A stretch of DNA of 32,924 nt, taken from contig JAPLJS010000089.1 in NCBI GenBank assembly GCA_026388545.1, forward strand, positions 1 through 32,924, given 5' to 3'. This document shows positions 5,382 to 27,145 of this stretch, piece after piece. Position 1 is the stretch's first letter. Each line of letters opens with the position of its first letter. The notes beneath the pieces are model-generated. The model was not told where the DNA came from. It worked only from the letters and a program-made list of their open reading frames with translations, and ran no database searches. A program made the position numbers and the translations under genes. Source of the DNA: Deltaproteobacteria bacterium. GTDB taxonomy: Bacteria; Desulfobacterota; Syntrophia; Syntrophales; UBA2185.

Positions 5382-8300
5382 TCAATGCCTGCTGTCAGGC
5401 AGCAAAGAGAGAATTTTCTCTACCTGGGCGGAAAGAACGCTATCGTGAATCAGGGCCATATTGATTTCTTGCAAGATGCCGGATAGATCTTCAATAGTAT
5501 GAATCGTTCTATTCCTGTTCAACTGCAGCTCTTTCAGGAGGAGATCGCACCAATGGATAAATTCAACGATCCTATTTTGCCTGAGTTCAATTTCACACAG
5601 GTATAAAAGGGCTTTAAGCATCCCCTTTTCCAGGTTGTAAACACGCTCGAAAAACATCCTTGCATTGTCGAATTGACCGAGTTCCATGGCTATTTCACCA
5701 AGGTTGAACCATGGCACAGGTTCCTGCGGATTGATTTCTATGGCCTTACTGAAGGCCTCCATAGCACGGTCGAGAGAATTTTGCCGCCGATGGAGGAGAC
5801 CGAAATTGCATAGTGCCGCATAGTTCTGATGGTCTATGTTCAACAGTGTGTCAAGCGCCTGAGTTGCCGTTGTCAGATCGTCTGATGCCAGGGATAAGAC
5901 GGCAAGACGATTCAGAACGATGACATCCTGACAGCCCAGTTCGAAAACTCGCGATAGACATCGTTTTTCGTCCTTGTCGTTTGCTGCTTTGCCGTTCCAT
6001 TTTGCCAGCATGTACCAGACTGATGGCTCTTTGGGCGCTTCCACCAGGGCAAGATCCAGATATCGGTGGGACAGACCGAGATCACCCGAACGATCCATAT
6101 GGAATGTCCCGATATTCCACCAAGTCTGCCATTTATCATCAGACATTTGTTCGGCGACTTTGTAATGCTTATCCATTCTCGCGCTATCTTTCAGGGCATG
6201 GTACGCGTGACCGATAAGGAGATTGACGCTGCCCCCCTCCCTGATTGTCGCGTTCAGTATTTCGCCCATTTTATCGGGATTATTATCAAAGTCATCGCGG
6301 AGTTCGAGGAAGCGAAGACCGTAATTGAGGACATTCTCCCACTGTTTGTCTTCGGCCGAGAGGATGGTCATCATATACATCGAGTCAAGATGATTGGGAA
6401 ATTTTTTCAGGGCGCGCAAAGAGTAATCCCGGGCATGATTCAAATCTTCCAGGTGAAAAAAGGCGATTGCGGCATTGTGATGTGTCGAAAGATAGATGCC
6501 ATGTTCATTACCTTGAGCATCTGCAAGATGAATGGCAAGGGTCGATTCTTCTATAGACTCCCTGAACATCCCCCGGGCGAGATAGGACGTGCCTAGATAT
6601 TGATGAGGCATGGGATCGTCCGGATTCTTGGCAATCTGCTCCTTCAGGAGATCTGCCGTCCGTATAAATTTCGCATTCGCTTTCTTTTCCTCGACATTAT
6701 AACCATAATGCATCAGCTCGATCTTCGAAGGCTTGGTGCAGGTCTGCCCTACAACACGGTTATGAACGATGCTTTCATAATGGATGACACCGTTGTTCCG
6801 AAAAAGCCGTTCAAAATTGTGCCTGGCTGTTTTTCTGCCGCCGCTGTAAATGCTGATGATATTTACAAAGATGGCATCAGCTTCACCCGTTTCGCGGACA
6901 GCCTGTCTCAACCGTTCTCCGCTGCCTTCAACCAGTTCCTCATCTCCGTCGATCTGAAAAATCCAGTCTCCCGTTGCGTATTGCAGCGCCTGGTTGCGCG
7001 CTTTGCTGAAACTGCCCTCCCAAGGATGAAAATAAATCCGATCTGTAAATTTTCGTGCAATATCGACCGTATTGTCTGTGGAACCCGTATCCACAATAAT
7101 GAGTTCATCGACATGGTTCTTAATGCTTTTCAGGCACTCCTCCAGAAACTCTTCTTCATCTCTGACGATCATGCAGCAACTGATGGTCGGCTCTTTTTGA
7201 TACTCTTCGGTCTTATGTGAAATTTTCGCCAGTAAATCATTGACCGTCTCATCATTTGCATTTAGCCGGCGTGCCTTCTCAAGATATAAGAGGGATTTTG
7301 CCATAAAATTTTTATTGTAAAAATAAATGCCTATCGCTCTCAGAGCAATAAAGGGTTCCAGCGCGGACTGAATTGCCTTTTCGAATGATTTTTGAGAATT
7401 TACCTCCTGCCCCAGCTCGATACAGGCTATACCCATGAGGACGTGTATATTCCACTCTTCATTCAGAGAGCAGGTCACAAGCGTGCCAAAATGAGAAGGA
7501 TCGGCATGCAGAACATCCATAAGCCGGAGATATCGATCGGCATGGTAAATTAAGTCTTTCCAACGCTTCTGATCGAAACAGATCATGATCATCATAAAGT
7601 GTGAATCGATATGGTCGGGATATTTTTTCAGCGCATTCATGGCCACTTCGCTAGCCATTTTCAGGTTGCCGGACCGATAATAGGCAAGAGAGAGATTATA
7701 GTGGGTCCAGAGAAACATCATATCCTGGTTGTTCCGGAGATCTGCCAGGTTGATGGCCTTCAGGCCGTGTTCAATAGTCTCGTTGTCCATTTTCCGGCTC
7801 AGGTATGAACAACTGAGGTAATGATGTGTGGCGGGGTTATCCGGATTGTCCTCAAGATCCTTCCTGAGGAGCGATACGTTCCTTTCAAACTTTTTACCGG
7901 CGTCGCTCTCCAAGATATCATAACCGTAGTGGAGGATTCTGATCGGATAAATTTTTGGCGAGGTTATACCGACGAGGCGGTTATGAACGCGGCCTTCATA
8001 CTGAATGACACCATTATTACGGAATATACGTTCGACATTGTGAACAGATTTGCTCCGACCCTTACGTGCGGTGCTTACGATCCGGATTACAATGGCATCG
8101 ATATCTTTATCCTGAACAGCCTTGCGGACCTTCGGAATGTCCTCTTTGACCAGTTCCTCGTCGGCGTCGATCTGGAATATCCAGTCCCCTTTGGCATATT
8201 TCAAATAGTAATTCCGGGCCTCGCTGAAACTGTTGTTCCAGGGATGGAGATAGATCTTGTCGGTATATTTTCTGGCAATCTCCACCGTCCGGTCCGTCGA

Positions 8301-8465
8301 GCCCGTGTCCACAAAGATGATCTCATCTGCAATCGGTTTGACACTGCTTAAGCATTGATCAATATATTTCTCTTCATTTTTTGCGATCATGCAGACCGAG
8401 ATCAGAGGTTTTTCCGATGGCTTTACGGCGGAGACTGTCGATTTATTCCTTTTTTTCTTCTTCAT
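5382..8465 (-). CDS. Double GT2 glycosyltransferase with TPR repeats
   Basis: This 1027-residue cytoplasmic protein carries two family 2 glycosyltransferase domains. The first is at about residues 20-125 (LISVCMIAKNEEKYI, VDTGSTDRTVEIARK, IDADEE as the DxD metal site). The second starts near 425 (TISCCMIVRDEEEFL, VDTGSTDNTVDIARK, IDGDEE). Each is followed by helical TPR-type repeats, and a third TPR block occupies about 770-950. The two halves are clearly an internal duplication. GT2 enzymes transfer sugar from a nucleotide donor, and TPR arrays usually bind the acceptor protein. Its position directly upstream of flagellin suggests flagellin glycosylation, but the substrate is inferred. The start has TAGGAGTG six bases upstream. 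No signal peptide or membrane segment is seen. Confidence 0.85.
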   Translation of the reverse strand: MKKKKRNKSTVSAVKPSEKPLISVCMIAKNEEKYIDQCLSSVKPIADEIIFVDTGSTDRTVEIARKYTDKIYLHPWNNSFSEARNYYLKYAKGDWIFQIDADEELVKEDIPKVRKAVQDKDIDAIVIRIVSTARKGRSKSVHNVERIFRNNGVIQYEGRVHNRLVGITSPKIYPIRILHYGYDILESDAGKKFERNVSLLRKDLEDNPDNPATHHYLSCSYLSRKMDNETIEHGLKAINLADLRNNQDMMFLWTHYNLSLAYYRSGNLKMASEVAMNALKKYPDHIDSHFMMIMICFDQKRWKDLIYHADRYLRLMDVLHADPSHFGTLVTCSLNEEWNIHVLMGIACIELGQEVNSQKSFEKAIQSALEPFIALRAIGIYFYNKNFMAKSLLYLEKARRLNANDETVNDLLAKISHKTEEYQKEPTISCCMIVRDEEEFLEECLKSIKNHVDELIIVDTGSTDNTVDIARKFTDRIYFHPWEGSFSKARNQALQYATGDWIFQIDGDEELVEGSGERLRQAVRETGEADAIFVNIISIYSGGRKTARHNFERLFRNNGVIHYESIVHNRVVGQTCTKPSKIELMHYGYNVEEKKANAKFIRTADLLKEQIAKNPDDPMPHQYLGTSYLARGMFRESIEESTLAIHLADAQGNEHGIYLSTHHNAAIAFFHLEDLNHARDYSLRALKKFPNHLDSMYMMTILSAEDKQWENVLNYGLRFLELRDDFDNNPDKMGEILNATIREGGSVNLLIGHAYHALKDSARMDKHYKVAEQMSDDKWQTWWNIGTFHMDRSGDLGLSHRYLDLALVEAPKEPSVWYMLAKWNGKAANDKDEKRCLSRVFELGCQDVIVLNRLAVLSLASDDLTTATQALDTLLNIDHQNYAALCNFGLLHRRQNSLDRAMEAFSKAIEINPQEPVPWFNLGEIAMELGQFDNARMFFERVYNLEKGMLKALLYLCEIELRQNRIVEFIHWCDLLLKELQLNRNRTIHTIEDLSGILQEINMALIHDSVLSAQVEKILSLLPDSRH

Positions 8466-8570
8466 GAATTACACTCCTACGAGCGCGGATAGACAAATCT
8501 TAAAAGTTCACACGAGTATATCGCCTCCACCATTCCATGGGTATTTTTCATTGGAAAGATGTGGGGCACT

Positions 8571-10316
8571 CTATTTTTTCTTGATTTCTTCGATCAAGCC
8601 TTGCGCTCCGGAATGGGATAAATCAGCCAATAGGGTCCTGCTGCAATATTCAGCAGCCTGTTCCAGGTCATTCACGGAAAAGCACCAGCGAGCCATCCTG
8701 TACTGAGCTTCCGCCCAGACGGGCGCCAGATCTGCGGCCGTGCCGAAGCCAATGCCGGCTTGTTCCCTTGCACCCTGGATGTCATAGATCCGTCCCAGAC
8801 CAAGGGCAGCGGGACTGCAAAAGGGGTTAAGCCGGAGCGCCTCGTTATACCAGTGCATTGCCTCGGCATAAACACCGTGCGATTCCAGCAATTCCGCCAT
8901 CGAAACGGCAGCGGGGGTATAGCCGGGCCAACGTTTCAACAGGGCGGCCAAGTCCTGAAGTGCCGCCATCGGATACTGATCTTGCAATGCCTTCGCCTTA
9001 AGCCAACAAGCGCGAAGAGAATGCGGATTGCGTTTGATGGCTTCATCAAACCATTGGGATGCGTCCGGATTGCATTTACGAAGGGAACAATAGCCAAGCC
9101 AAAACCACGGCAGCGAATAATCGGGACTTTCCTCAGCGGCGCGGCGGTATGTTTTGACGGCGTCTTCATAAACACCGGCCACTTCATGGTTGATCCCTTC
9201 TATAATGAGCCTCTCAACATTTGAGGTAGCTACTTCGAAGTAATCGGCGTTTTCATCACAGCGAACAAGGGGTACTTCAGGATACAGAGCGGAATTGTCT
9301 TTACCGCTCTGAATAAGGCTCGAATAGAAAGTCAAACGACTATCCGCATGAACGTCCTCCATGCGACAGCGCTTCACATAAGCATAAGCTGTCTTGCTTA
9401 TACGATCCCGAAGACCAGCGTCGCAAGCAAGCGTCGATAAAATCGACAGGAGTTGTTCTGGTGAATCATAGAGGAAGCCCGTTTCTCCCTGTTGCACTGA
9501 AGCTTTGTAAGGAGTAAGAGAACTGAGCACCGGGACGACGCCCCTGGATGCATATTCCAGAAATTTTACATCGGATCTGCAGCGGTTGTAAGGATTGTCC
9601 TGAAGGGGCGCAATGCCAATATCGAGCTTTTGTAAAAAGCCAAGATAATCATCCAATGTTCCCGGCGGCGTATAAATGATACGGCCGGCCGGCAAGGCGG
9701 CTGACAAAATGCGATAGATCGTTTCGTCGCCCATGTAGGCAAAATCCAAATGTGGACAAAAACGCATGGCCTGAGCAATGACATCCCTGACTACTTCGAT
9801 GTCTCTTCTATGGCCGGAAGAACCGGCCCATCCCAAAATAACACGGTCGGAAGCCTGTCGTTCACCCATGCCCACAGTGGCCATTTGGTTTTCAAAGATA
9901 ACCATCCGTGAATTGATGAAGCGGAATTGATCAGCAAGCCCGGAACCTGTCACCTGTATAGCATCTGCCATTCTCATGTATTGAAAAGCCAAGGCAAGAT
10001 TGACCGGATCGGAAAACCACCTCCGAATACCAACCCCTTCATGTAATGCCAAAATATTATCGGAAAGCTCGTATATAGTAGGTCGCCCTTGCCGCTTCCT
10101 CTCTTCCAATAGCGGCAGAAGGTCGTGTTCACTAAGCAAATGAAGTATGAGAACGTCCGCAGACAGGCAGAGCTTATCAAACCATGGAGAAGTTGTATTA
10201 ACTGTAATGACGGTGGCCTTCCCAGTTTTTCCCAAGGCGATCGATGGTTGTTCTACCCGGTAAATATAATCGCCAACTTTTCGGGTCAGCATGGCAACAG
10301 CATTAACAATTAACAT
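8571..10316 (-). CDS. GT4-type glycosyltransferase with C-terminal TPRs
   Basis: The protein has 581 residues. Residues 1 to about 345 look like a GT-B fold, family 4-like transferase. There is a Rossmann-like start, a segment VILGWAGSSGHRRDIE near 155-172, LDIGIAPLQDNPYNRCRSDVK near 235-255 and the donor-site stretch KFLEYASRGVVPVLSS shortly after. Residues about 365-575 are TPR repeats (several A..A...YRRA, W..LGYCSL-type helices). It lies in the same direction as the neighbouring transferase genes. It may add or extend glycans on flagellin or another cell-surface acceptor; the exact sugar cannot be read from sequence. The start at 10316 has AGGA about ten bases upstream. The gap upstream contains a GT2 gene remnant. 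Confidence 0.8.
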   Translation of the reverse strand: MLIVNAVAMLTRKVGDYIYRVEQPSIALGKTGKATVITVNTTSPWFDKLCLSADVLILHLLSEHDLLPLLEERKRQGRPTIYELSDNILALHEGVGIRRWFSDPVNLALAFQYMRMADAIQVTGSGLADQFRFINSRMVIFENQMATVGMGERQASDRVILGWAGSSGHRRDIEVVRDVIAQAMRFCPHLDFAYMGDETIYRILSAALPAGRIIYTPPGTLDDYLGFLQKLDIGIAPLQDNPYNRCRSDVKFLEYASRGVVPVLSSLTPYKASVQQGETGFLYDSPEQLLSILSTLACDAGLRDRISKTAYAYVKRCRMEDVHADSRLTFYSSLIQSGKDNSALYPEVPLVRCDENADYFEVATSNVERLIIEGINHEVAGVYEDAVKTYRRAAEESPDYSLPWFWLGYCSLRKCNPDASQWFDEAIKRNPHSLRACWLKAKALQDQYPMAALQDLAALLKRWPGYTPAAVSMAELLESHGVYAEAMHWYNEALRLNPFCSPAALGLGRIYDIQGAREQAGIGFGTAADLAPVWAEAQYRMARWCFSVNDLEQAAEYCSRTLLADLSHSGAQGLIEEIKKK

Positions 10317-10327
10317 ATGTTTGCTTC

Positions 10328-10483
10328 CTATCTGGGCCGTTTACGATAAACAGCAGAATAATCAGAAGAAAAATCTTTTGAAAAATGGTGAAGATAGCCT
10401 ATTTTTCTAACTGTCCGTGATTTATGGATAAAGTATTCCTCTTCATTATTCATGATCATGCAAAGAGAGATTCCGGGAATTTT
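10328..10483 (-). pseudogene. Remnant of a GT2 glycosyltransferase N-terminus
   Basis: On the minus strand, in a frame different from the upstream gene, this gap reads IPGISLCMIMNNEEEYF and then unrelated sequence up to a TAG stop. The first part is an obvious counterpart of the GT2 opening motif in the neighbouring gene (LISVCMIAKNEEKYI and TISCCMIVRDEEEFL). No DTGSTD or DxD motif follows, so only about 17 codons are recognisable. It looks like a scar from deletion or recombination of a GT2 gene copy. It overlaps the stop codon of the upstream four-domain gene by two bases. Confidence 0.6.
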
Positions 10484-13262
10484 ATTCTTCGCAGCTCTGC
10501 TTTTTGAGTTTTCGTTCTGACTCTAACGCTTTCCCATAAGTCTGCTGTATATAACGGATCGAAAAACCTTGTATGTCCGCAGGGCGCTGAAGATGGTGGA
10601 CCTTCACGGCGGTGAGTTTTAGCGATGGTTCATCCTGCGCATGGTAATCTGTCGGCGCTTCCTGCCGGATTTCCCGGAAGCCCAAGCCTTGAAGTATCTC
10701 TGCAAGATTCTCAAACGTGTAACCAAAATGATGATAGTCCCCGGGATGTCTTTGGAGGCCAAAGATATTATTGATCCGGAATTTCTTTCCTTTCATATAC
10801 TCTTTGACGGTTGCATCAAAGTCCGGACACTCGATAACCAGTGTGCCGCCCTCCTCGAGAACGCGATTCCATTCGAAAAGCGCCTCAAAAAAATCATGGC
10901 GGGGAAGATGTTCGATCATGTGATACGTTTCGATCCGGGGAACGGTTCCTGCGGGGAAGGGAAGCCGACGGCTATCGCAGAGAAGATCCACGGCGGAAGA
11001 GGGCATAATGTCAATATTCAAAAAGCCCTCTAACCGGCGCTGACCGCATCCCAGATGAAGATTCAGGGGCTGTATTACGGGAATTTCTTTTCTGTTATTA
11101 CCTTCCAGATAACCGGTTCCTACTACAAAATTCCATTGTGCAGTGTTGCTGACTTCAATGCCATCCGGCTCACGCATGCCGCGGATAGAAAAGGTGGGGA
11201 AGAAGCCGAAAAGGAGATTTCTAAAATCATCGAGTCGCCAAGCGATTTTATGATCGGGATCGTTCAGGTGCATTATTGGAATACCAATAATAACCCTTTT
11301 TCGTGCCACACGTTTGGCTTCCAGAATCAGCGGTACCGGGTCGCTGAAGTGTTCGATGATATGGTCAAGAACAACGGTATCGTAAAATTGATCAGGGAAA
11401 GGTAGTTCTTTTGCATCACCCTGAACGAATCTCATCTCCGGATGATTTTTTATCGCTTCCTGGTATCCCCAATCCGTCAACTCTAAACCAGTCAAATCGA
11501 GCGACGGATTATGTCTTTTCATGATGGCGGTGGAATCACCATTGGCGCACCCGACATCCAGTGTGGAGCCTTCGCTTTGTTCCGCGGTAACTTCTTTCAA
11601 GCGTCGAATACGATCTGTATCCAGTTTTCCTTTCACCGGCGCCCAGACCTTTTTCATATAAAGATTCTTTGCCCGCTTCTCTAAATCATCTTCATTGATT
11701 CCAGTAATGTGCTGGATGATCTTTTGGGCTACCGATTTAAAGGAATATGCCTCCGCGGCTGCAAGCCCCAGTTTTTTTATGTGTTGTCTGTAATGATTAT
11801 CTTCGAAGAGACGATGAAGGATTTGGTCCAGTTCCGCCGGTGACGTGTAGATCAGTAAGGCTTCTCCAAAAATATCCTTTGCGTTGGGAAGAGAATCAGA
11901 GACCACAACGCCTCCTGATGCCATCACGTCAAGGATTCTCGGATTGAGGAAGCCTTCCCGGCGCATATCCTCATGATGGTCGTTCAACACCACTCTCGAA
12001 GAGGCATACAAATCGGGAAGTTTTTGGTTGTCAAAGTATACCCCGCAAATACATTTATCAGGAAGGATTCCATCCCAGCCCTCGCCCCATACCTCGAGAC
12101 GATCGATCCAGCGATTTCCCAGTGATATGAGATCGTGAATGATTCTTCTCCCCTTGCCTTGCTTGCCATTGGCGACAAACACAATATCATGAGATAATTC
12201 GTTGACTCCGGAAGGAGGTCGTTTGGCCGTGCCGCCGATTAAAAGCTCACCCCCTCTCCCCATAGTTCGGATCTTTTCAAGAAACTGTGGAGAGAGACAG
12301 AAAATATGGTCATAGAGAGAAAGAGATTGAGGCGTTATCGTGTCAGGATGACTGTGTATCCATATGATGTTATGTGTTGGCTCTTCAATCTTATTAAGCG
12401 GGATGCCATGTAGATGGATCAGTACCTTCGGTTCCTTTCCCGAGATGACAGCGCCTTCTGCTGACAGGGCATCGGCCAGTTCTTTACCGAACCAATGATC
12501 GCCCCATCGTAGTTTTCTTACAGGATCTTTTTCCAAAAGATCGGATGCGGAGATAATGGCGATGGGTAAACGTTTAAGTTTTTCTTTTCTGATCAGCAGA
12601 TCTTTGAGATTCTGAAGTTCCTTATCATGGGTCCCTTGTTTTAATGCGGGGATTAAGAGATCCCGCGCAACCGTTAAGTTCCCTTCATCAAGATAAAACT
12701 TGGCTACCTTCTCCACGGGGTATTTTTCTGAATGCAAAGCGTTACGGAAGTCATGAATCAGTTGTTCTCCGATTATCCGGATATTCTCCTGACCTTCATG
12801 TGAGCGCACGAGCTTCTCTAAAGAGGTTTTTGCCAGACTGAATTCACCAGTATGAAGGTAGCAATTTATAATCGAGATGAGTGTTTCAGGCTTTTTATCT
12901 CCGGATTTCAAGACTTTTTCAAAACTCTCTGCCGCCTCGGCATAGTTGCCGGTTTTTTCTAAACAAATAGCAAGATTCTCAAGGGACTCACCATAGTTTT
13001 CATTGACTTCCAGGGCTTTATGAAAAAAATGTATGGCCTGTTGAAGGTGGCCTTCCCTGAAATGAATTACCCCCAAATTATTGAAAGACTCATAATGTTG
13101 AGGATCAGTGACAATAATTCGCTCAAAACAGACTCTAGCCTTGCTGATATTGTTGCCGTTAAAAAGACGCTCCCCTTCTTGAAATAATTCTCTTACATCG
13201 CTGGTTTTCAAATCTGTAGCATCATTCATCATGGCATTGACTGTCTCAATTTCCTTATACAT
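10482..13262 (-). CDS. TPR-glycosyltransferase-dual methyltransferase fusion
   Basis: The 926-residue product has four parts. TPR repeats occupy about residues 25-215 (NNLGVIHFREGHLQQAIHFF). A CgeB/GT4-like glycosyltransferase follows at about 230-515, with IHLHG..., YASSRVVLNDHHEDMRREGF and NPRILDVMASGGVVVSDS. A class I SAM methyltransferase lies near 535-690 (LDVGCANGD, LDHIIEHFSDP). A second class I methyltransferase lies near 735-895 (LHLGCGQRRLEGFLNID, YHMIEHLPRHDFFEAL, GGTLVIECPD). Combining sugar transfer with methylation fits synthesis of an O-methylated glycan, as known on some flagellins; this is inference from context. The start at 13262 has no strong ribosome site, and a downstream Met is possible. 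The gene ends next to the GT2 remnant. Confidence 0.8.
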   Translation of the reverse strand: MYKEIETVNAMMNDATDLKTSDVRELFQEGERLFNGNNISKARVCFERIIVTDPQHYESFNNLGVIHFREGHLQQAIHFFHKALEVNENYGESLENLAICLEKTGNYAEAAESFEKVLKSGDKKPETLISIINCYLHTGEFSLAKTSLEKLVRSHEGQENIRIIGEQLIHDFRNALHSEKYPVEKVAKFYLDEGNLTVARDLLIPALKQGTHDKELQNLKDLLIRKEKLKRLPIAIISASDLLEKDPVRKLRWGDHWFGKELADALSAEGAVISGKEPKVLIHLHGIPLNKIEEPTHNIIWIHSHPDTITPQSLSLYDHIFCLSPQFLEKIRTMGRGGELLIGGTAKRPPSGVNELSHDIVFVANGKQGKGRRIIHDLISLGNRWIDRLEVWGEGWDGILPDKCICGVYFDNQKLPDLYASSRVVLNDHHEDMRREGFLNPRILDVMASGGVVVSDSLPNAKDIFGEALLIYTSPAELDQILHRLFEDNHYRQHIKKLGLAAAEAYSFKSVAQKIIQHITGINEDDLEKRAKNLYMKKVWAPVKGKLDTDRIRRLKEVTAEQSEGSTLDVGCANGDSTAIMKRHNPSLDLTGLELTDWGYQEAIKNHPEMRFVQGDAKELPFPDQFYDTVVLDHIIEHFSDPVPLILEAKRVARKRVIIGIPIMHLNDPDHKIAWRLDDFRNLLFGFFPTFSIRGMREPDGIEVSNTAQWNFVVGTGYLEGNNRKEIPVIQPLNLHLGCGQRRLEGFLNIDIMPSSAVDLLCDSRRLPFPAGTVPRIETYHMIEHLPRHDFFEALFEWNRVLEEGGTLVIECPDFDATVKEYMKGKKFRINNIFGLQRHPGDYHHFGYTFENLAEILQGLGFREIRQEAPTDYHAQDEPSLKLTAVKVHHLQRPADIQGFSIRYIQQTYGKALESERKLKKQSCEE

Positions 13263-14286: not shown

Positions 14287-14440
14287 CCTATATCTCTTAA
14301 TTTTGTGTTCACAATTCGGTACTTTAGGGTTCATCGGATTCATTCGTTGCTTTTGTTTCATCATCAATGCTGAAAAGGGCTCAGGATGGCTCTGTTGTTT
14401 TATGCCGCGGAAAAAAGTCAGATATTTTTACCATCCATTC

Positions 14441-14467
14441 TAAAGTTTTCTATTTGTGTGCCGATAA
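14441..14467 (+). promoter_or_regulatory. Consensus-perfect sigma-28 promoter
   Basis: The plus strand reads TAAAGTTT-N11-GCCGATAA, which equals the classical enterobacterial FliA promoter at every one of the 16 scored bases and in spacer length. It sits about 70 bases before the ATG of the HTH/receiver-like regulator. This is the strongest promoter match in the window. Confidence 0.92.
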
Positions 14468-14537
14468 AAGGGTACAGAGGTTGCATTGGATTAATTCGTT
14501 ACTATCGGTTCATCGTAAATACTTAAAAAGGATAGAT

Positions 14538-15173
14538 ATGTCTGAGTCGCTTTATTCTACCGCAGAGGTGGCGAGGTTATTCGAGATCAATAGAGTTACT
14601 ATTTACCGATGGGTGCAGGAGGGAGTTGTGAAGGCCTATAAGGTTGGTAAACATCTTAAAATCCCCGCATCCGAGGTGGAGAGGCTATGGAAGGAATTTG
14701 GTTTTCCCGGGGCATCATACATACATGTTTCCGATGCTTCCAGGAAAAAGCGATCAAGCGATTCTATGAGCAATGAGATGAAAGATGAGCATCAAAAAAA
14801 ATTGCTCATGACGGTAGGAATTGGCGAGGATGATCTCAAATACATCCGGGAAATATTTGCCGGGATGAAACTTGCAGAAGAATACCGGCTGACGACTTAT
14901 ATGGATACTCTTGAAGCGGCTCTCGCAATAGGCAAAGAGAAACCGGATTTGTTGTTGATCAAGATAATGAAGTTAGAGGGGAACGGCGTTGAGTTTGCGA
15001 GAAAAATCAGAAGTATTCATTCTGATATTAAGATCATCTTCATGAGTGATTCTGCCATAAACCGGGATGAAAAAGGGGAAGTCGGATCTCTTGAGAATGT
15101 GCCTATAACTGTTGGACGAAAAAGGCTGCATCGCGAGATCGTCAAAACCCTCGGATTACATGACAGGAACTGA
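14538..15173 (+). CDS. HTH regulator with degenerate receiver domain
   Basis: The start at 14538 follows AAGGA, giving 211 residues. Residues 5-52 form an excisionase/MerR-like winged helix (YSTAEVARLFEINRVTIYRW, then KHLKIPASEVERL), which binds DNA. After a charged linker, residues about 88-208 follow the pattern of a CheY-like receiver: an acidic cluster GEDD, then KPDLLLIKIMKLEGNGVEF, then IKIIFMSDS. The residue at the phospho-acceptor position is Lys142 rather than Asp, so it should not be phosphorylated in the usual way. It is expressed from a perfect sigma-28 promoter and stands between the filament and chemotaxis blocks. It may regulate late flagellar genes, but its target is unknown. 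Confidence 0.8.
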   Translation: MSESLYSTAEVARLFEINRVTIYRWVQEGVVKAYKVGKHLKIPASEVERLWKEFGFPGASYIHVSDASRKKRSSDSMSNEMKDEHQKKLLMTVGIGEDDLKYIREIFAGMKLAEEYRLTTYMDTLEAALAIGKEKPDLLLIKIMKLEGNGVEFARKIRSIHSDIKIIFMSDSAINRDEKGEVGSLENVPITVGRKRLHREIVKTLGLHDRN

Positions 15174-15378
15174 AAGGGCTGTATGCGGCGAAAAGATCCT
15201 GTAATGAAAAAGTAACCGGTCAATTAATAATGATCAGAAGAAAGGGGGTGGCGGGCGTTCACTAGACAAGTAAATCAAATGAGGAAATAAAGAACTGTTA
15301 GGAAATCGAGAAATGAGAAGTTTAGAAAAAGTGGATTAAGAAAATCAATAAGAATAGAAAGTAAGGGGGAAAGAAGAG

Positions 15379-15828
15379 ATGAAAAAAGTTTTAGCAATAA
15401 TTCTGGTAGGCCTTTTTGTGTTAGGGGGGGTCGCGTATGCAGCCAAGGGTACGGCGAAGGAAGCCATAGCAAATGTGGACAAGGCAATTGCGTACTTCAA
15501 GGCAAATGGAAAGGCAGCAGCATTTGCGGCATTTGATAACCCGAAGGGGGCATTCGTAAAGGAAGACCTGTATATCTATGTTGTCGATATGAAAGGTGAT
15601 ATTTTATCCCACGGAGCAAACAAAAAACTGATAGGTCAGCATTTTATCGATATTAAAGACTCCCATGGAAAGCTCTTTTTCCGGGAGATTATCGATGTGG
15701 CAAAAAAGAAAGGGAGCGGATGGGTCGATTATACATGGACAAATCCCGTATCGAAAAAGGTGGAGCCGAAATCGGCGTATGTCAAAAAATCCGGCGACTA
15801 CGTTTTTTGCTGTGGTGTATACAAGTAG
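15379..15828 (+). CDS. Secreted single-Cache-domain protein
   Basis: The 149-residue protein begins with a clear signal peptide (KKVLAIILVGLFVLGGVAYA, cleavage near residue 22). The remaining 125 residues look like one Cache domain: a helix, then DLYIYVVDMKGDILSHGANKKLIGQ-type sheet (key parts YIYVVDMKGDILSHG and LIGQ near 62-88), and ending GDYVFCCGVYK. Cache domains normally form the extracellular ligand-binding part of receptors and kinases. Here the domain is alone and has no membrane anchor beyond the signal peptide. It precedes the MCP gene by 67 bases, so it may present a small ligand to that receptor from the periplasm. The start has a GGGGGAAAGAAGAG ribosome site. Confidence 0.8.
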   Translation: MKKVLAIILVGLFVLGGVAYAAKGTAKEAIANVDKAIAYFKANGKAAAFAAFDNPKGAFVKEDLYIYVVDMKGDILSHGANKKLIGQHFIDIKDSHGKLFFREIIDVAKKKGSGWVDYTWTNPVSKKVEPKSAYVKKSGDYVFCCGVYK

Positions 15829-15841
15829 GTGTTTGAAAAAC

Positions 15842-15870
15842 GGTCAGATAGGCCTCCCGCCTATCTGACC
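15842..15870 (+). other. Intercistronic stem-loop before the MCP gene
   Basis: A perfect 12-base-pair stem (GGTCAGATAGGC/GCCTATCTGACC) encloses a five-base loop. It starts 13 bases after the Cache gene stop. On the plus strand it is followed by AACTCTAG, not a T tract, so it is unlikely to be a strong intrinsic terminator for the operon. It could protect the upstream message, cause partial attenuation, or direct processing. Confidence 0.7.
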
Positions 15871-15895
15871 AACTCTAGTAAAGGGGGGGGTTGAC

Positions 15896-17497
15896 GTGAA
15901 AAAAATTATCAGAAATCTGAAGATGGCAAAAAAAATGATGTTACTCCCGGCGGTCGTCTTCATATTCCTCATGGCTCTGTCATATGGGGCCTACGACGGG
16001 CTTTCGAATCAAAAGAAGGCCATTGAGGACATATTTAACAACCGCTTTAAAGTGTACCAGGATTCCGCGGACATGATCAAGAAAATCGGGAATGTCCACG
16101 CGAATATCTATAAGATCATCAGCTGGGTTAATGCGCAATATGACGACCAGAAGATACAGGCGCTTGCTAAAGAACAGACTGCTGTCCTGGAAAAGACCAT
16201 TGAGCAGGCACAGAATATATTGAAATCAAGCGCCCTCACGGCTGAAGAGAAGAAGCTCTTTCAAAAGACCCTTGATGATCTATTAGAGTATCAAAAGCCG
16301 GCTATGGGCGTTGTCACTGTTGGTTCGTCCGATGCGGGCGCAGCGACGATGTTCATGGGCACCGCGGATGATAAATACCAGATTCTCAACCAGACACTGG
16401 AGGAACTCCTGGTCCTCGAGAACAAGTTGAGCAAGGAGAAGTACGATTCATCTATCAGTAGCTTCAATGCGGTGATGAGGACTTTTGCGATCGTACTGGT
16501 AGTTGCCATAGTCCTGTCTGTATTGATCAACATCTTTATTACCAGGCTGATTACCCAGCCGATCAAGGAGACAATTGAGGCGATCCATAAGGTAGCCGAT
16601 GGCGATCTTACCCAGGAAATGAGTATAGACTCCAGGGATGAGATCGGTGAACTCGCTCAGTCTATCAATACCATGCGGATGAAGACGGGAGAAGCCGTCG
16701 GGCAGGCGCTGTCGATCTCGAATGTTCTCTCTGAATCATCTTCCCGGCAGGCCGCAGCACTCGAGGAGACATCCGCCTCTCTGGACGAGATGGCTTCCAT
16801 GACCAGACAGAATGCCACCAATACATCCGAGGCCAACAAGCTTATGGCGGCGGCCAAGCAGGCTATTGAAAAGGCAAATTTTTCCATGAATGAGTTGACC
16901 AGATCGATGAAGGAAATTGCATCCGCAAGCGAGCAGACCCAGAAGATTATCAAGAGCATAGATGAAGTTGCCTTCCAGACAAACCTGCTGGCTTTAAATG
17001 CGGCGGTGGAAGCGGCTCGTGCCGGTGAGGCGGGAGCAGGTTTTGCAGTGGTTGCCGATGAGGTCAGGAATCTGGCTATGCGGGCAACGGATTCCGCGAA
17101 GAATACAGCTACTCTGATTGAGGATATTGTGAACAAAGTCAGAGGAGGGGAATCTCTCGTGAACGTTACCAATGAGGTCTTTAGTGAAGTAACGGCCAGC
17201 TCGACGAAAGTTGTTGAGTTAATGGGGGAGATTGCTGCTGCATCTCAGGAACAATCTCAGGGGATTGATCAGGTGAACAAGGCGATGGCCGAGATGAACC
17301 AGGTAACACAGCAGAATGCCGCCAGTGCAGAAGAATTGACTGCCACCATGGCCATGTTCAAGGTTAACGGTCATAATGGACAGGGCCATGCGGATGAAAT
17401 ATCCCATAGAAAAAGTGTAAAAAAGCTGCTGCCTGCACACTATCAACAGGGCGGTCCCGAAAAAATTATTCCCATGAAAAACGATGACTTTGTCTGA
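15896..17497 (+). CDS. Methyl-accepting chemotaxis protein
   Basis: This 533-residue receptor begins with GTG after a G-rich ribosome site. It has one membrane segment at about 13-32, a periplasmic helical region about 33-195 resembling a four-helix-bundle sensor, a second membrane segment about 196-216, a HAMP domain about 216-268 (ITQPIKETIEAIHKVADGDL, RDEIGELAQSIN) and a long cytoplasmic signalling coiled coil to about 500. The conserved hairpin tip is present (IDEVAFQTNLLALNAAVEAARAGE, key part FQTNLLALNAAVEAARAGE). Methylation-type Glu/Gln segments flank it. There is no NWETF-like tether at the C-terminus. It signals to the CheW and CheA encoded downstream, and may work with the secreted Cache protein upstream. 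Confidence 0.93.
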   Translation: MKKIIRNLKMAKKMMLLPAVVFIFLMALSYGAYDGLSNQKKAIEDIFNNRFKVYQDSADMIKKIGNVHANIYKIISWVNAQYDDQKIQALAKEQTAVLEKTIEQAQNILKSSALTAEEKKLFQKTLDDLLEYQKPAMGVVTVGSSDAGAATMFMGTADDKYQILNQTLEELLVLENKLSKEKYDSSISSFNAVMRTFAIVLVVAIVLSVLINIFITRLITQPIKETIEAIHKVADGDLTQEMSIDSRDEIGELAQSINTMRMKTGEAVGQALSISNVLSESSSRQAAALEETSASLDEMASMTRQNATNTSEANKLMAAAKQAIEKANFSMNELTRSMKEIASASEQTQKIIKSIDEVAFQTNLLALNAAVEAARAGEAGAGFAVVADEVRNLAMRATDSAKNTATLIEDIVNKVRGGESLVNVTNEVFSEVTASSTKVVELMGEIAAASQEQSQGIDQVNKAMAEMNQVTQQNAASAEELTATMAMFKVNGHNGQGHADEISHRKSVKKLLPAHYQQGGPEKIIPMKNDDFV

Positions 17498-17575
17498 TGT
17501 GAGGAAAAAGGATACTCGTGTGTAACAGGCGACGCCGCACGTCTGGAAGTTTGTACAGAGGTGATGTATATAATG

Positions 17576-17598
17576 TTTCCCCTACCGGATAGGGGAAA
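17576..17598 (+). other. Intercistronic stem-loop between MCP and cheW
   Basis: A perfect nine-base-pair stem TTTCCCCTA/TAGGGGAAA encloses the five-base loop CCGGA. No T tract follows on the plus strand. It lies 79 bases after the MCP stop and 47 bases before the cheW start. It is similar in form to the stem-loop before the MCP gene, so the MCP cistron is bracketed by hairpins. Confidence 0.65.
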
Positions 17599-17645
17599 GG
17601 GGTTATTGCGGCAAAAAATGAGGACTATTGAGGAGGTTATGAGTT

Positions 17646-18176
17646 ATGCAGGAAGTATCAGGAGATACAAGAGAAAGCGCAGTTTTCCATGCAATGGAAA
17701 GAGGGCTCAACAGGGAAGGGAAATACCTAACCTTCGGCCTTGGTAGCGAAGAGTACGGGTTAGAGATCCTTAAAGTGAAGGAAATCATCGGTATCATGAA
17801 TATTACCTCTGTACCTCAGACACCGAAGTACGTAAAGGGCGTTATTAATTTAAGGGGAAAGGTTATTCCCGTTATTGATCTTCGTCTGAAGTTCGGAATG
17901 GATGTCATAGACTACGATGACAGAACCTGCATTATTGTTGTTGATATTGCAGGCAGCACGGGGAAAAAGATCGTCATGGGTATTGTTGTGGATTCCGTTT
18001 CTGAAGTTCTGAATATTAAGGGTGAAGAAATAGCGGATACGCCGACATTTGGTGTGAGATTAGATACGGACTATATCCTGGGTATGGCCAAAGTAAAAGG
18101 TGGAGTCAAAATCCTTCTTGATATTAATAAGGTGTTGACGACAGATGTCGCCATAGCTGAATCAATAGAGCATTAA
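17646..18176 (+). CDS. cheW: Chemotaxis coupling protein CheW
   Basis: This 176-residue protein links receptors to CheA. The CheW SH3-like fold spans about residues 25-165, with KYLTFGLGSEEYGLEILKVKEIIG, TSVPQTPKYVKGVINLRGKVIPVIDLR (key parts P..P.Y.KGVINLRG..IPVIDLR) and GIVVDSVSEVLNI. There is an N-terminal extension of about 24 residues and a short Ala/Glu tail. The start lies 11 bases after GGAGG; the nearer ATG at 17639 is out of frame. It follows the MCP gene and leads the cheW-cheR-cheD series. A stem-loop covers its stop codon. Confidence 0.95.
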   Translation: MQEVSGDTRESAVFHAMERGLNREGKYLTFGLGSEEYGLEILKVKEIIGIMNITSVPQTPKYVKGVINLRGKVIPVIDLRLKFGMDVIDYDDRTCIIVVDIAGSTGKKIVMGIVVDSVSEVLNIKGEEIADTPTFGVRLDTDYILGMAKVKGGVKILLDINKVLTTDVAIAESIEH

Positions 18177-18195
18177 GAAGCTGGTTTTCTTAATG
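18171..18195 (+). other. Stem-loop over the cheW stop codon
   Basis: CATTAAGAA pairs with TTCTTAATG across a seven-base loop. The left arm contains the cheW TAA. It is A/T-rich and not followed by a T tract. It is the third stem-loop in this stretch of the operon, and it may separate translation or decay of cheW from cheR. Confidence 0.55.
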
Positions 18196-18247
18196 CAGGC
18201 AAGTGTGTGGTCTGATCAAATCTTCGATAGGTATATGTGCTGATACG

Positions 18248-19072
18248 ATGGCGTCGATTGAGCTCAACGATATTGATTTTGAGAAAATAAGCCGCTTTGT
18301 TTACGATCTCTGCGGAATCAATTTACATGAAGGAAAGAAAGAACTTGTCAAAGCACGTTTGGGGAAAAGGCTGAGAGAAGGGAATTTCACGTCTTTCTCG
18401 GAATATTATCGCTATGTGACAACACCGGAGGGGTCGGATGAGCTGATTGTTATGATTGACTCGCTCTCTACGAATTTGACGTATTTTTTCAGGGAAGCGG
18501 AGCATTTTCAGAAACTTCGAGAGATCCTGCCGGAGATGGCAGGAATGTCAGGGAAGGGTCGTATCCAGAAGTTGAGAATATGGAGTGCCGGCTGTTCGAC
18601 AGGTGAAGAACCTTATTCGATTGCCATGACGCTAAGAGAAATATTCAACAGCAGTCAGGTTGATATCAAGATAATCGCATCGGATATATCTACAAAAGTA
18701 CTGAACACAGCGGTGAAAGGTGTATACCCGGAGGAAAAGGTCAAAAATGTTTTCCCCGTTCTTTTAAAAAAATATTTTCAGATCGGTCAGGGTAACTGGA
18801 AGGGACACTATCGGGTTAAAAAGGAAATGCAGGAAATGATCGATTTCATACGGTTCAACCTCATGGAGGAACTTCGGTATAGTGATCCTTTTGACATCAT
18901 ATTCTGCAGAAACGTCATGATATATTTTGATAAAACAACCCAGGGTAATATGGTGAATAAATTTTACGGGTACTTGAAAAAGGGCGGGTATTTATTTATC
19001 GGACGCTCTGAAAGCCTGACAGGGTTGAATCATCAATTTGCATATATAGAGCCGAGTGTCTATAGGAAATAA
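18248..19072 (+). CDS. cheR: Chemotaxis protein methyltransferase CheR
   Basis: CheR methylates glutamates on the MCP signalling helices with S-adenosylmethionine. The N-terminal helical domain covers about residues 1-75 (DFEKISRFVYDLCGINL). The SAM-dependent domain follows (FFREAEHFQKL, WSAGCSTGEEPYSIAMTL, IIASDIS, FDIIFCRNVMIYFD, GGYLFIGRSESL). I chose the ATG at 18248, giving 274 residues, the usual length. A GTG 45 bases earlier is possible and would add 15 unconserved residues. Neither start has a strong ribosome site. The stop is one base before the cheD start, so translation is probably coupled. There is no C-terminal receptor-tether or TPR extension. Confidence 0.93.
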   Translation: MASIELNDIDFEKISRFVYDLCGINLHEGKKELVKARLGKRLREGNFTSFSEYYRYVTTPEGSDELIVMIDSLSTNLTYFFREAEHFQKLREILPEMAGMSGKGRIQKLRIWSAGCSTGEEPYSIAMTLREIFNSSQVDIKIIASDISTKVLNTAVKGVYPEEKVKNVFPVLLKKYFQIGQGNWKGHYRVKKEMQEMIDFIRFNLMEELRYSDPFDIIFCRNVMIYFDKTTQGNMVNKFYGYLKKGGYLFIGRSESLTGLNHQFAYIEPSVYRK

Positions 19073-19073
19073 T

Positions 19074-19559
19074 ATGAGTGAGATTGTTGTCGGGATTTCA
19101 GATATCAAGATAAGCAATAATATAAATGATATTTTAGTCACCTACGCGCTCGGTTCATGTATTGGGGTCTCCGTATATGATCCTTTGGTCAAAGTAGGGG
19201 GACTTTTACATTTTATGCTTCCTGAATCATCACTCGATGCTCAAAAGGCAACTGTAAATCCGGCTATGTTCGCGGATACAGGCATCCCTCTTTTGTTTAA
19301 GTCCTGTTATAAGTTTGGTGCGGATAAAAAAAGAATGAGGGTAAAAGTTGCCGGTGGGGCGAGTATTCTGGACGATACGAATTTTTTCCGGATAGGTCAG
19401 AAGAACATCACCGCCGTGAAGAAACTATTCTGGAAAAATAACGTGTTAATTGAAACCGAAGATACGGGGAGTAATTATAACCGGACAGTTCATGTGCATA
19501 TCGCAACGGGTAAAGTCTTCGTGAAAACCGCCCATAACGGGATGAGGGAGTTGGTATGA
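19074..19559 (+). CDS. cheD: Chemoreceptor glutamine deamidase CheD
   Basis: CheD deamidates receptor glutamines and, in other species, exchanges between receptors and CheC-type phosphatases. The 161-residue protein contains the catalytic set Thr23, Cys29 and His46 (VTYALGSCIGVSVYDP and GGLLHFMLP), with the same spacing as Thr21-Cys27-His44 of Thermotoga CheD. The ATG at 19074 is preferred, with ATAGGA upstream; a GTG six codons earlier overlaps cheR and lacks a site. Its last four bases overlap the next gene in an ATGA arrangement. The two CheX proteins encoded downstream are CheC relatives. Confidence 0.95.
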   Translation: MSEIVVGISDIKISNNINDILVTYALGSCIGVSVYDPLVKVGGLLHFMLPESSLDAQKATVNPAMFADTGIPLLFKSCYKFGADKKRMRVKVAGGASILDDTNFFRIGQKNITAVKKLFWKNNVLIETEDTGSNYNRTVHVHIATGKVFVKTAHNGMRELV

Positions 19560-20401
19560 TCAGTGACGAGATCTTGAAATCTATCAAGAACATTCCGGCC
19601 TTTCCTGCAGTGGCATTGAAGGTGATGACCTTAATTGATGATCCCGATTTCTCTCTAATGGATGTTGTCGATGTGATTAAATATGATCAGGCAGTAACAG
19701 CGAACATACTCAGAATTTGCAATTCTGCCTATTTCGGTCTCCGGTATAAAGTCGAAACTGTACGTGATGCCGTAATGCGTCTCGGGCAGCAGAATGTCGT
19801 CCGTGCTGTTCAGGTTTCCGGAGTATCAAAATTTTACAAGAATGCAAAGGGTTATGGTCTGGAGGCTGACAAACTCTGGGAGCATTCCGTGGGTGTTGCA
19901 CTGATGTCCCAGATATTATCCAGGAGGATTTTTCATTGTGAAGATGCCAGACTTTATACGACATCCCTTCTTCATGATATCGGAAAAGTTGTTATGGGTG
20001 AATTTGTCGATAAGTCATTTCAAAATATTTATAATCTTGTGTCCGACAAGGGGATTTCATTTCTTGAGGCCGAAGAAGAGGTTCTCGGCATCAACCATGC
20101 GGAACTGGGCGGGAAGATAGCCTCCCATTGGAATTTTCCTGAGGATATGCGGGATGCGATTGTTTACCACCACAGACCTGATCTAATGCCGGACGGAGGC
20201 AGCAGCAGCGCCTGGCTCGTATATCTTGCCGATCAGGCGTGTATTATGATGGGGATTGGCTTGGGGAGTGATGGTCTTGCATACAAAGGATTGTCTGAAG
20301 TGATTGTCAGATTCAAACTTCGCCAGAGGGATTTCGAAGAATGCATCATGATGATGCTGGGGGATCTGGAGAGCGCCAAAGAATTGCTTGGTATAGTTTA
20401 A
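19556..20401 (+). CDS. HDOD-domain signalling protein
   Basis: This 281-residue protein consists of an HDOD domain for most of its length (KNIPAFPAVALKVMTLIDD, VIKYDQAVTANILRICNSAYFG, VRDAVMRLGQQNVVRAV). HDOD domains are HD-related, usually non-catalytic, signal-output modules found beside chemotaxis and cyclic di-GMP genes. This copy retains several HD-type residues: His in LWEHSVG, HD in LLHDIGKVV, and YHHRPD. Catalysis therefore cannot be excluded by eye. It overlaps cheD by four bases (ATGA), so the two are translationally coupled. No receiver, GGDEF or EAL domain is attached. Its role inside the che operon is unknown. Confidence 0.88.
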   Translation: MISDEILKSIKNIPAFPAVALKVMTLIDDPDFSLMDVVDVIKYDQAVTANILRICNSAYFGLRYKVETVRDAVMRLGQQNVVRAVQVSGVSKFYKNAKGYGLEADKLWEHSVGVALMSQILSRRIFHCEDARLYTTSLLHDIGKVVMGEFVDKSFQNIYNLVSDKGISFLEAEEEVLGINHAELGGKIASHWNFPEDMRDAIVYHHRPDLMPDGGSSSAWLVYLADQACIMMGIGLGSDGLAYKGLSEVIVRFKLRQRDFEECIMMMLGDLESAKELLGIV

Positions 20402-20474
20402 ACATAACAGGAAAGTACAGATGTTAAGGAAAGTAAGATCCGCCATAGAAAATAATATATTATGAGGTGTTGCG

Positions 20475-20906
20475 ATGTCTTTTAACGTCTTGATCGTCGA
20501 TGATTCAAATTCGATGCGTTCCGTGATCAAGAAGATCATTACGATTTCAGGCTTCAAGATGGACCAATGCTATGAGGCAGGAAACGGAAAGCAGGCCCTG
20601 GAGATTTTGTCAAAAGTATGGGTGGATGTGATTCTCTCGGATCTGAATATGCCGGAGATGAACGGTTTGGAGCTGCTGGCGGCCTTGAAGGGAGACAGTC
20701 TCTTGCAGGAAATTCCTGTCATCATTATCTCGACGGAAGGCAGTGATGAAAGAAGGCGTACCGTTTTAGAGATGGGTGCGAAACAGTTTATCAAAAAACC
20801 GTTTTCACCTGAAAATGTCAGAAAAATTCTTTATGAAGTTATCGGTGTGGGGGATGAAGGAACCTATGAAGGAAATGAAAGAGACGCTGATGGTGGCGAT
20901 TTTTGA
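20475..20906 (+). CDS. cheY: CheY-type response regulator, copy 1
   Basis: This single receiver domain has 143 residues. Asp9-Asp10 form the acidic pair, Asp56 (VILSDLNMPEMNG) is the phospho-acceptor, the Ser/Thr switch is in IIISTEGS, and the invariant Lys is in FIKKPF. The C-terminal 20 residues after the domain are acidic and Gly-rich, and extend the protein beyond the usual 120-125. The start has ATGAGGTG upstream. The end of the gene overlaps the start of the following cheX by 41 bases. CheA probably phosphorylates it, and the overlapping CheX could dephosphorylate it. It is only moderately similar to the second CheY in the operon. Confidence 0.9.
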   Translation: MSFNVLIVDDSNSMRSVIKKIITISGFKMDQCYEAGNGKQALEILSKVWVDVILSDLNMPEMNGLELLAALKGDSLLQEIPVIIISTEGSDERRRTVLEMGAKQFIKKPFSPENVRKILYEVIGVGDEGTYEGNERDADGGDF

Positions 20907-21300
20907 TGTATTTGAACGAATGTTTTATGTCTTTCTCGAACCTGTGAATGATGAATATTCGGACTATGCTATGGCGGCGACCATACAGTTTGGCGGTGCC
21001 TTGAAGGGGGAAGTGAAGATCTTCGTTTCTGAGAGGTTGGCAAAAAGTATGGTTCAAAATTTGTTAGGTATAGAGACAGAAGATATCACTGAAAAGGACA
21101 TAGAGGATTGCATTAAAGAGGCAGTCAACATGATTTGCGGAAACTTTTTAGGGAGACTTGACCAGACGAAAGTGTTTGATCTATCCATACCATCATTTTC
21201 ACAACGTCCGGGGAAAGCCGCGCAGGGGGAAAATGTCTGCATGTTGTATTTTGATTCAGATAGTGACGGGTTCGGCACAACCCTTACACTGTTCAATTAG
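20866..21300 (+). CDS. cheX: CheX-type CheY-P phosphatase, copy 1
   Basis: The frame is open further upstream, but the ATG at 20866 has GAAGGA five bases before it and gives 144 residues, the normal CheX size. The fold pattern is alpha/beta with the phosphatase helix KEAVNMICGNFLGRL, in which Glu and Asn form the E-x-x-N motif of the CheC/CheX/FliY family. An earlier segment, IQFGGALKGEVKIFVSERLA, matches the beta-sheet of the family. CheX dephosphorylates CheY-P, replacing CheZ, which is absent here. It overlaps cheY copy 1 by 41 bases, which points to a functional pair. Identity to the second CheX is low by eye. Confidence 0.82.
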   Translation: MKEMKETLMVAIFDVFERMFYVFLEPVNDEYSDYAMAATIQFGGALKGEVKIFVSERLAKSMVQNLLGIETEDITEKDIEDCIKEAVNMICGNFLGRLDQTKVFDLSIPSFSQRPGKAAQGENVCMLYFDSDSDGFGTTLTLFN

Positions 21301-21426
21301 CCATTTGCTTTTTTATTTTTTATAAGGAGAAGAGATTTCGGGGAGGAGAGAATTATATAAAACCGGGACAAATCATTTGCCGGGTAACAAAATTCGCAAA
21401 GGTGATTGGTCTCCCTCTTTGGATGA

Positions 21427-22467
<1,041 letters not shown>

Positions 22468-22470
22468 ACA

Positions 22471-24678: not shown

Positions 24679-24727
24679 GGTTTAGATGAAAAAAAGAGTA
24701 AATTGATCATAAACGGGAGGGAGCATT

Positions 24728-25114
24728 ATGGATGTTAAAAAAATCAAAATCCTGGTAGTCGATGACTTTGCAACAATGAGAAAGGTTATCAGAAACCTTT
24801 TGAAACAGTCCGGTTTTGAAAATGTTACCGAGGCCGAGGACGGCGTGGTGGCCCTGAATATATTAAAGACGACGAAAGTGGATTTTGTTATCTCTGACTG
24901 GAATATGCCCAATATGACGGGAATTGAACTTTTAAGGTCGGTCAGGGCGGATGCTGAATTAAGCAAAACACCTTTTCTTATGGTTACAGCAGAATCCCTT
25001 AAGGAAAATGTCGTGGAAGCGGTTAAAGCCGGGGTCAGCGATTATATCGTGAAGCCATTTACGCATGAAGTCCTTGGTGAAAAAATCGATAAGATCATGA
25101 AGAATGTCAACTGA
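24728..25114 (+). CDS. cheY: Chemotaxis response regulator CheY, copy 2
   Basis: This 128-residue protein is a classical CheY in length and motifs: acidic pair Asp12-Asp13, phospho-acceptor Asp57 (FVISDWNMPNMTG), Thr in FLMVTAES, and Lys in DYIVKPF. The DWNMPNM sequence around Asp57 is the same as in enterobacterial CheY, so this is the more likely motor-binding copy. When phosphorylated by CheA it would bind the switch protein FliM. The start is supported by GGGAGG seven bases upstream. It lies 49 bases after cheA and 19 bases before the second cheX. Confidence 0.96.
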   Translation: MDVKKIKILVVDDFATMRKVIRNLLKQSGFENVTEAEDGVVALNILKTTKVDFVISDWNMPNMTGIELLRSVRADAELSKTPFLMVTAESLKENVVEAVKAGVSDYIVKPFTHEVLGEKIDKIMKNVN

Positions 25115-25133
25115 TTTTGAAAGGTGAAGAGTC

Positions 25134-25601
25134 ATGGACGTAAAATTTATAAATCCCTTTTTAGGGGGGACCGTTGAGGTATTAACAACGATGGCCTTTG
25201 TAAATCCCAAGCCCGGCAAGCCGTATCTTAAAAAAAACAATTTAGCCAAGGGTGATGTTTCCGGGATTATCGGCATTACGGGAACGATAAGGGGTTCGCT
25301 TGCTTTGAGTTTCAGTACGGGCAGTATACTTAAAATAGTATCAAACATGCTGGGTGAGGAAATCACATCAATCAACGGCGACATCAGGGATGCTGTTGGG
25401 GAAATCACGAATATGGTATCCGGTGCGGCAAGGAAAAGAATAGAAGCGATGGGGTATAGTCTAGCTGCCTCCATTCCGACCGTCGTTTCCGGTAAGGAAC
25501 ACTCAATTATGCATGTGATGGGTGGTCCCAGTGTCGTTATTCCTTTTGAAATGGAAGGAGGTTCTTTCGTGGTGGACGTCTGTATGGGCGATCCCCAGTG
25601 A
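25134..25601 (+). CDS. cheX: CheX-type CheY-P phosphatase, copy 2
   Basis: The 155-residue protein has typical CheX features: an N-terminal MDVKFINPFLGGTVEVLTTMAF helix (key part INPFLGG...V..TM), GTIRGSLALSFS, and the phosphatase helix VGEITNMVSGAARK, containing the E-x-x-N pair. The end returns to the sheet (SVVIPFEMEGGSF). It resembles Thermotoga and Borrelia CheX better than the first copy does. It lies 19 bases after cheY copy 2, so the operon holds two adjacent CheY-CheX pairs. It probably terminates the CheY-P signal. Confidence 0.93.
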   Translation: MDVKFINPFLGGTVEVLTTMAFVNPKPGKPYLKKNNLAKGDVSGIIGITGTIRGSLALSFSTGSILKIVSNMLGEEITSINGDIRDAVGEITNMVSGAARKRIEAMGYSLAASIPTVVSGKEHSIMHVMGGPSVVIPFEMEGGSFVVDVCMGDPQ

Positions 25602-25678
25602 TGAATTTTTTTATTCGGCAGGGAGAACCGCTTTTACTGCTATTTGAGGATTAATCAGGTCTTGATCGGGATTAGAGC

Positions 25679-26218: not shown

Positions 26219-26232
26219 ATTTACATTAATAT

Positions 26233-27093: not shown

Positions 27094-27145
27094 TGGCTGA
27101 CGAAGCCGTCTGGTTTTATCAAGATCGACATTTTGCGGGATTATC

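Follow-up and report, generated by a model that had tools for sequence, protein, structure and literature searches.

Closest described systems

The closest solved sequence match to the regulator studied here is BldC of Streptomyces (PDB 6ama and 6amk), a MerR-like HTH_17 protein that binds direct repeats head-to-tail as a cooperative multimer, with the 9-mer AATTXXXX(C) as the site of each protomer (PMC5859096). The "9-bp direct repeats" are restated in later work (PMC11963761), and bldC of Actinoplanes has been termed a global transcriptional activator (PMC11960193). Excisionases, or recombination directionality factors such as Xis and RdfS, have the HTH_17 fold and also form head-to-tail filaments on DNA (PMC11963761). 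FrzS, RitR and CosR are pseudo-receivers, in which the (beta-alpha)5 receiver fold is kept without the acceptor Asp (PMC4395418, PMC12632262).

The gene of interest lies on contig C89 of a 3.28-Mb assembly, and "the window" below means the whole stretch of 32,924 nucleotides that was analysed. Among named genomes, Syntrophaceae MAGs are its nearest relatives. It combines known kinds of element, namely a BldC-type HTH, a pseudo-receiver response regulator and the FliA regulon. Like FlgM, FliZ and FliT of enteric bacteria, which are late-class or FliA-linked and feed back on flagellar expression, it is tied to FliA, but those proteins differ from it in family and mechanism.

The window regulator has an HTH of the same family as BldC, the site proposed for it consists of consecutive 9-bp direct repeats, and several HTH-only orthologues are BldC-sized (62 to 77 aa). 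Unlike BldC, which is tied to sporulation, it carries a C-terminal receiver and is associated with FliA and chemotaxis genes, and its repeats are of the GTTGCA type. It shares the TIGR01764 match with excisionases, but no integrase was present among the scanned window genes, and the regulator sits in a chromosomal chemotaxis cluster. The predicted receiver fold is that of FrzS, RitR and CosR. The differences are an N-terminal HTH_17 output domain instead of an OmpR- or LuxR-type one, a Lys at the acceptor position, and canonical sister proteins that share the promoter and operator.

FliA promoter and gene neighbourhood

14441 to 14467, plus strand: FliA (sigma-28) promoter, with the -35 element TAAAGTTT at 14441 to 14448, an 11-nt spacer and the -10 element GCCGATAA at 14460 to 14467
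15379 to 15828, plus strand: single-Cache (sCache_2) protein with a signal peptide-like N-terminus, the next gene in the same direction
15896 to 27934, plus strand: chemotaxis and motor block (MCP, cheW, cheR, cheD, HDOD, cheY, cheX, cheB, cheA, cheY, cheX, PilZ, motA, motB)

The promoter on the plus strand matches the E. coli FliA consensus at 16 of 16 positions with a spacer of 11, and is identical to the printed sigma-28 consensus, TAAAGTTT-n11-GCCGATAA (PMC2859248), as the initial annotation had stated. The exact string TAAAGTTT-N11-GCCGATAA was found in none of 100 dinucleotide shuffles of the window, and the genome contains no second exact N11 copy. One further exact copy of the consensus, with an N12 spacer, lies upstream of flgM-flgN-flgK. 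The regulator's site is also nearer to consensus than those of fliC and fliD, which were expected to be weaker, because the latter match at 14/16 each and have N12 spacers. N12 is the spacer in most of the best FliA-like sites of this genome, whereas the regulator's site has N11, so the closer match need not make it the stronger promoter. On the minus strand, a strong FliA-like site at 359 to 386 (TAAAGTTT-N12-GTCGATAA, 15/16) aims off the left edge of the window, behind a fliT/flgN-like gene.

The genome contains a fliA gene (248.8 bits, above cut-off). A FliA site of 13 to 16 matches out of 16 was detected upstream of 22 of the 27 orthologues tested (P <= 0.002 against shuffles). The site was weak (11 to 12 of 16) in three f20 orthologues, weak in L099 and absent in L097. 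With a consensus at an accepted spacing that is conserved in orthologues, and with fliA in the genome, the gene is best read from its promoter as a late-class, FliA-dependent member of the FliA regulon, the class to which it had been assigned initially.

The regulator gene heads the chemotaxis block and is located between the filament and chemotaxis genes. No terminator-like site was found on the plus strand from 15173 to 15379. Co-transcription of the regulator, sCache and MCP genes is only possible, because the gaps before the sCache and MCP genes are 205 and 67 bp. A perfect GC-rich 13-pair hairpin lies between the latter two genes (15841 to 15871), with a T-run on the minus strand only. 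The single-Cache protein (15379 to 15828) is free-standing, and the MCP beside it bears a four-helix-bundle sensor instead; the relatives L003, L004 and L013 retain the sCache-MCP pair or the Cache gene. In the interval from fliC to the regulator, three large proteins that combine TPRs with glycosyltransferase or methyltransferase domains (5382 to 13262, minus strand) suggest flagellin glycosylation. Elsewhere in the set, a FliA-like site with one mismatch (L017, G000:C27:57642) precedes a small gene and an HDOD gene, beside a PilZ-like gene.

Regulator protein

14538 to 15173, plus strand: HTH-(pseudo)receiver regulator of 211 aa, with a conserved reading frame and dN/dS below 1 in both domains
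14538 to 14699, plus strand: excisionase/BldC-type HTH (HTH_17), residues 1 to 54, identified by profile matches
14793 to 15161, plus strand: pseudo-receiver, residues 86 to 208, in which the Lys142 codon (14961 to 14963) replaces that of the acceptor Asp

The regulator starts at the ATG at 14538, with AAGGA just 5' of it, and stops at 15171 to 15173. A 268-aa read-through frame from 14367 was ruled out, since both homology and the ribosome-binding site begin at 14538. The HTH matched two curated profiles above their cut-offs, HTH_17 (PF12728; residues 5 to 52, E = 5.5e-12, 46.2 bits against a cut-off of 27) and TIGR01764 (excise; 45.9 bits against 28.8), which bears out the proposal of a DNA-binding protein with an excisionase-like HTH. 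The classical MerR profile PF00376 scored 14.3 bits, below its cut-off of 28.2, and the candidate site consists of direct repeats behind the promoter, instead of the palindrome in a long spacer that is typical of classical MerR targets. The best PDB sequence match was BldC (6ama, E = 0.0095). The regulator falls outside the BldC subfamily as defined by the NCBIfam profile (26.8 bits against a cut-off of 77) and, carrying a receiver, outside the small wHTH-only form that several of its orthologues have. The HTH domain is 96% identical to those of L003 and L004, and its dN/dS was about 0.01 where computable, indicating very strong constraint.

The Response_reg profile matched residues 98 to 172 (E = 1.7e-5) with 25.4 bits, under its 30.2-bit cut-off. 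An AlphaFold2 model built with 21 orthologues (pLDDT 71.7) consists of the HTH, a disordered linker (56 to 84) and a complete (beta-alpha)5 domain, with the elements E88-93, H97-109, E116-121, H124-133, E138-142, H149-160, E165-170, H176-181, E190-192 and H194-205. Aligned with solved receivers, the model gave a VIA Z of up to 14.2 (2.8 A over 117 residues) and a Foldseek E of 7e-5, so that the structure alignment called for at the outset supported a receiver-like C-terminal half. Lys142 (AAG) is the final residue of beta-3, which is the acceptor position, and no neighbouring Asp substitutes for it; the replacement of the acceptor by Lys thus stands as originally described. The 'TKP'-type (KP) Lys is also lost. 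The protein lacks the full residue set of an active receiver (acceptor Asp, acidic pair, Thr/Ser and Lys) and classes as an aspartate-less pseudo-receiver, with the fold given by prediction.

Judged from substitution ratios, the receiver of the window's family is under relaxed but not absent selection: its dN/dS is 0.15 to 0.25, compared with 0.04 to 0.08 in the canonical f14 relatives. We infer that the receiver is an accessory control domain, and it is predicted to be signal-independent in this organism.

Orthologues and receiver evolution

Orthologues were found in 27 of the 155 genomes of the order, and wherever the fetched neighbourhood was clear they adjoin chemotaxis genes (MCP, CheW, CheR, CheD or HDOD). 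Most have an intact Asp receiver, and those of the f14, f5 and f20 families are canonical or near-canonical. In the window's family, K, NK, K or R replaces the acceptor Asp in the four full-length proteins, and this Asp-less family forms one supported clade (100/98). Outside it, Asp was lost in one separate f15 genome, where Gly is found. In several lineages the HTH alone is left, and no receiver remnants were found downstream of the HTH-only orthologues. A receiver match at L099 was rejected as a remnant; it lies in another gene, which is encoded on the opposite strand. Outside the order, HTH-only orthologue genes of 62 to 71 aa occur in four genomes with a FliA site and the array described below.

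The initial annotation knew of no named regulator of this build. The literature searched yielded nothing specific on an HTH_17-receiver flagellar regulator and no described equivalent. The HTH_17-receiver architecture itself is not unique, since versions with an intact Asp are frequent within the order and are found in other parts of the phylum as well.

A 9-bp repeat array at the predicted transcription start

14471 to 14515, plus strand: five 9-bp direct repeats (GGTACAGAG, GTTGCATTG, GATTAATTC, GTTACTATC and GGTTCATCG), the proposed head-to-tail operator
14326 to 14403, plus strand: degenerate copy of the leader and gene start, 71% over 78 nt, 152 bp upstream

The array begins 3 nt past the -10 box, at about the predicted transcription start, and extends into the leader. 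In the orthologue comparison, the stretch from the -10 box to the start codon matches the promoter in degree of conservation, and a GTT (GTT.C) pair 18 bp apart is present in all 25 alignable leaders. Over 15 divergent leaders, self-match was raised only at 9 bp (0.387) and 18 bp (0.422) against 0.264. None of 2,000 shuffles reached this periodicity, a pooled statistic that overstates independence because the leaders are related and share ancestry. The single leaders of G087 and G140 were not significantly periodic alone, the second GTTGCA-register repeat of the window (GATTAATTC) matches GTTGCA poorly, and two HTH-only orthologues (L097 and L099) have no array. In the four genomes outside the order, which were left out of the building of the array matrix, the array lies 8 to 19 nt behind a near-perfect FliA site and before the HTH-only gene, with five repeats in three of them.

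The degenerate upstream copy matched the leader model with an E of 0.00125 and is also present in L003 and L004, at 151 bp. It looks like an old duplication of the leader and gene start, and its array part (14328 to 14368) may serve as a distal operator or may be left over from that duplication. Before one orthologue, a second FliA-like site with array (L164, G140:C99:918-956) lies about 130 bp further upstream, a layout that resembles the upstream copy in the window.

Candidate targets of the array

In its own genome, the array model was significant only at the regulator leader and its degenerate copy. No array was found behind the FliA-like sites of fliC, fliD and flgM or behind seven others of this genome. 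Weak genome-wide matches on C109, C53 and C111 (E of 0.2 to 0.5) were taken as chance, and none of them precedes a motility gene. In two relatives, a match lies directly behind a FliA-like site of another gene.

G114:C30:127612 (L160): FliA-like site followed by a 9-bp array, before a cheW-cheR operon (E = 0.0019)
G097:C3:47616 (L161): FliA-like site followed by a 9-bp array, before a chemoreceptor (MCP) gene (E = 0.009)

Judged by these arrays, the two loci are likely further targets of the regulator, and the regulon in these relatives would therefore include chemotaxis genes. A match in G138 (E = 0.016) at the end of a coding sequence was taken as chance. The proposal that the protein is a feedback regulator of late flagellar genes is narrowed by these results. 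Feedback is probable on the regulator's own promoter and on chemotaxis genes of some relatives; for fliC, fliD and late genes in general it is not supported, because their FliA sites have no array behind them.

Proposed mechanism and alternatives

The reading preferred here, with a probability of about two in three, is that the gene encodes a late-class BldC-like autorepressor that acts on its own FliA start region, and on chemotaxis genes in some relatives, with the receiver as an accessory domain. After release of FliA, RNA polymerase-FliA would transcribe the regulator from 14441 to 14467. The HTH, of the BldC/excisionase kind, would then line up head-to-tail along the 9-bp repeats across the start region, and the bound regulator would block FliA-dependent initiation or clearance. 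Such negative autoregulation would cap the level of the regulator and possibly that of chemotaxis genes transcribed from this promoter. In some relatives the regulator would also act at the FliA promoters of the cheW operon and the chemoreceptor gene. That the regulator binds the array and thereby represses is inferred from the family to which its HTH belongs, from the 9-bp register of the repeats and from the location of the array, which is downstream of the -10 box. Most relatives have an intact receiver, presumably subject to phosphorylation; here the domain is degenerate yet predicted to fold, and other relatives lack it. Since Lys replaces Asp in the degenerate receiver, activity in this organism would depend on how much regulator is present, or on a partner that binds the pseudo-receiver, and not on Asp phosphorylation.

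The conserved leader could instead be an RNA element (an attenuator, a site for an RNA-binding protein or a leader peptide) that steers translation. It lies almost wholly within the predicted transcript, between the -10 box and the start codon, and FliA-class mRNAs are often controlled post-transcriptionally. This explanation is unlikely: the leader had no match in Rfam, that of the window folded no better than shuffles, and no structure was common to the relatives. What is conserved is a 9-bp register and not a stem, as would be expected for a protein that binds DNA head-to-tail; leader lengths vary, and the degenerate copy sits upstream of the promoter. A CsrA-type GGA site was rejected, as some leaders have no GGA (e.g., G110). 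An equally improbable alternative takes the array as a DNA site of opposite sign, at which the regulator bends DNA and stimulates its own FliA promoter in positive feedback. MerR-type proteins can activate from within promoters. BldC-type regulators can also act positively, besides acting negatively, as with Actinoplanes bldC (PMC11960193), but the array here lies downstream of the -10 box, over the start and early transcribed region, where a bound protein usually blocks, and a promoter that already has the consensus does not need an activator.

Global feedback on late flagellar genes (fliC, fliD and flgM) would fit the late-class promoter and the position between the filament and chemotaxis genes. 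Weak sites could escape detection, because BldC-like proteins have a loose consensus and can recognise DNA by indirect readout (PMC5859096). Given the lack of an array behind fliC, fliD, flgM and the other FliA-like sites of the genome, and of any other significant array genome-wide, this wider role is slightly less probable still. A different question is whether the receiver is a functionless, decaying relic in a gene heading to the HTH-only form, which is doubtful, if less so than the preceding alternatives, and compatible with the preferred reading of the HTH. The roughly three- to five-fold higher dN/dS than in canonical relatives, and the HTH-only orthologues with the same promoter and array, are consistent with decay. 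However, dN/dS stays far below 1, every full-length member of the family has an open frame, and the model predicts an intact fold.

Significance

The module of promoter, operator and regulator is real, conserved and well defined, with a putative role for the operator. The balance tips slightly towards an undescribed class of feedback regulator, FliA-transcribed and BldC-like, that would form a head-to-tail filament on 9-bp repeats overlapping FliA starts in several lineages of the phylum, and in which the receiver has been kept, degraded or discarded with the promoter and operator fixed. Most of what is known about the tuning of FliA-dependent genes once FlgM has left the cell comes from enteric bacteria. 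The module can be read off the sequence alone. It predicts a defined circuit of autoregulation at sigma-28 promoters and points to likely extra targets in relatives (cheW and chemoreceptors). With the same HTH, promoter and operator combined with an active, dead or absent receiver, it also provides a natural series for the role of a pseudo-receiver.
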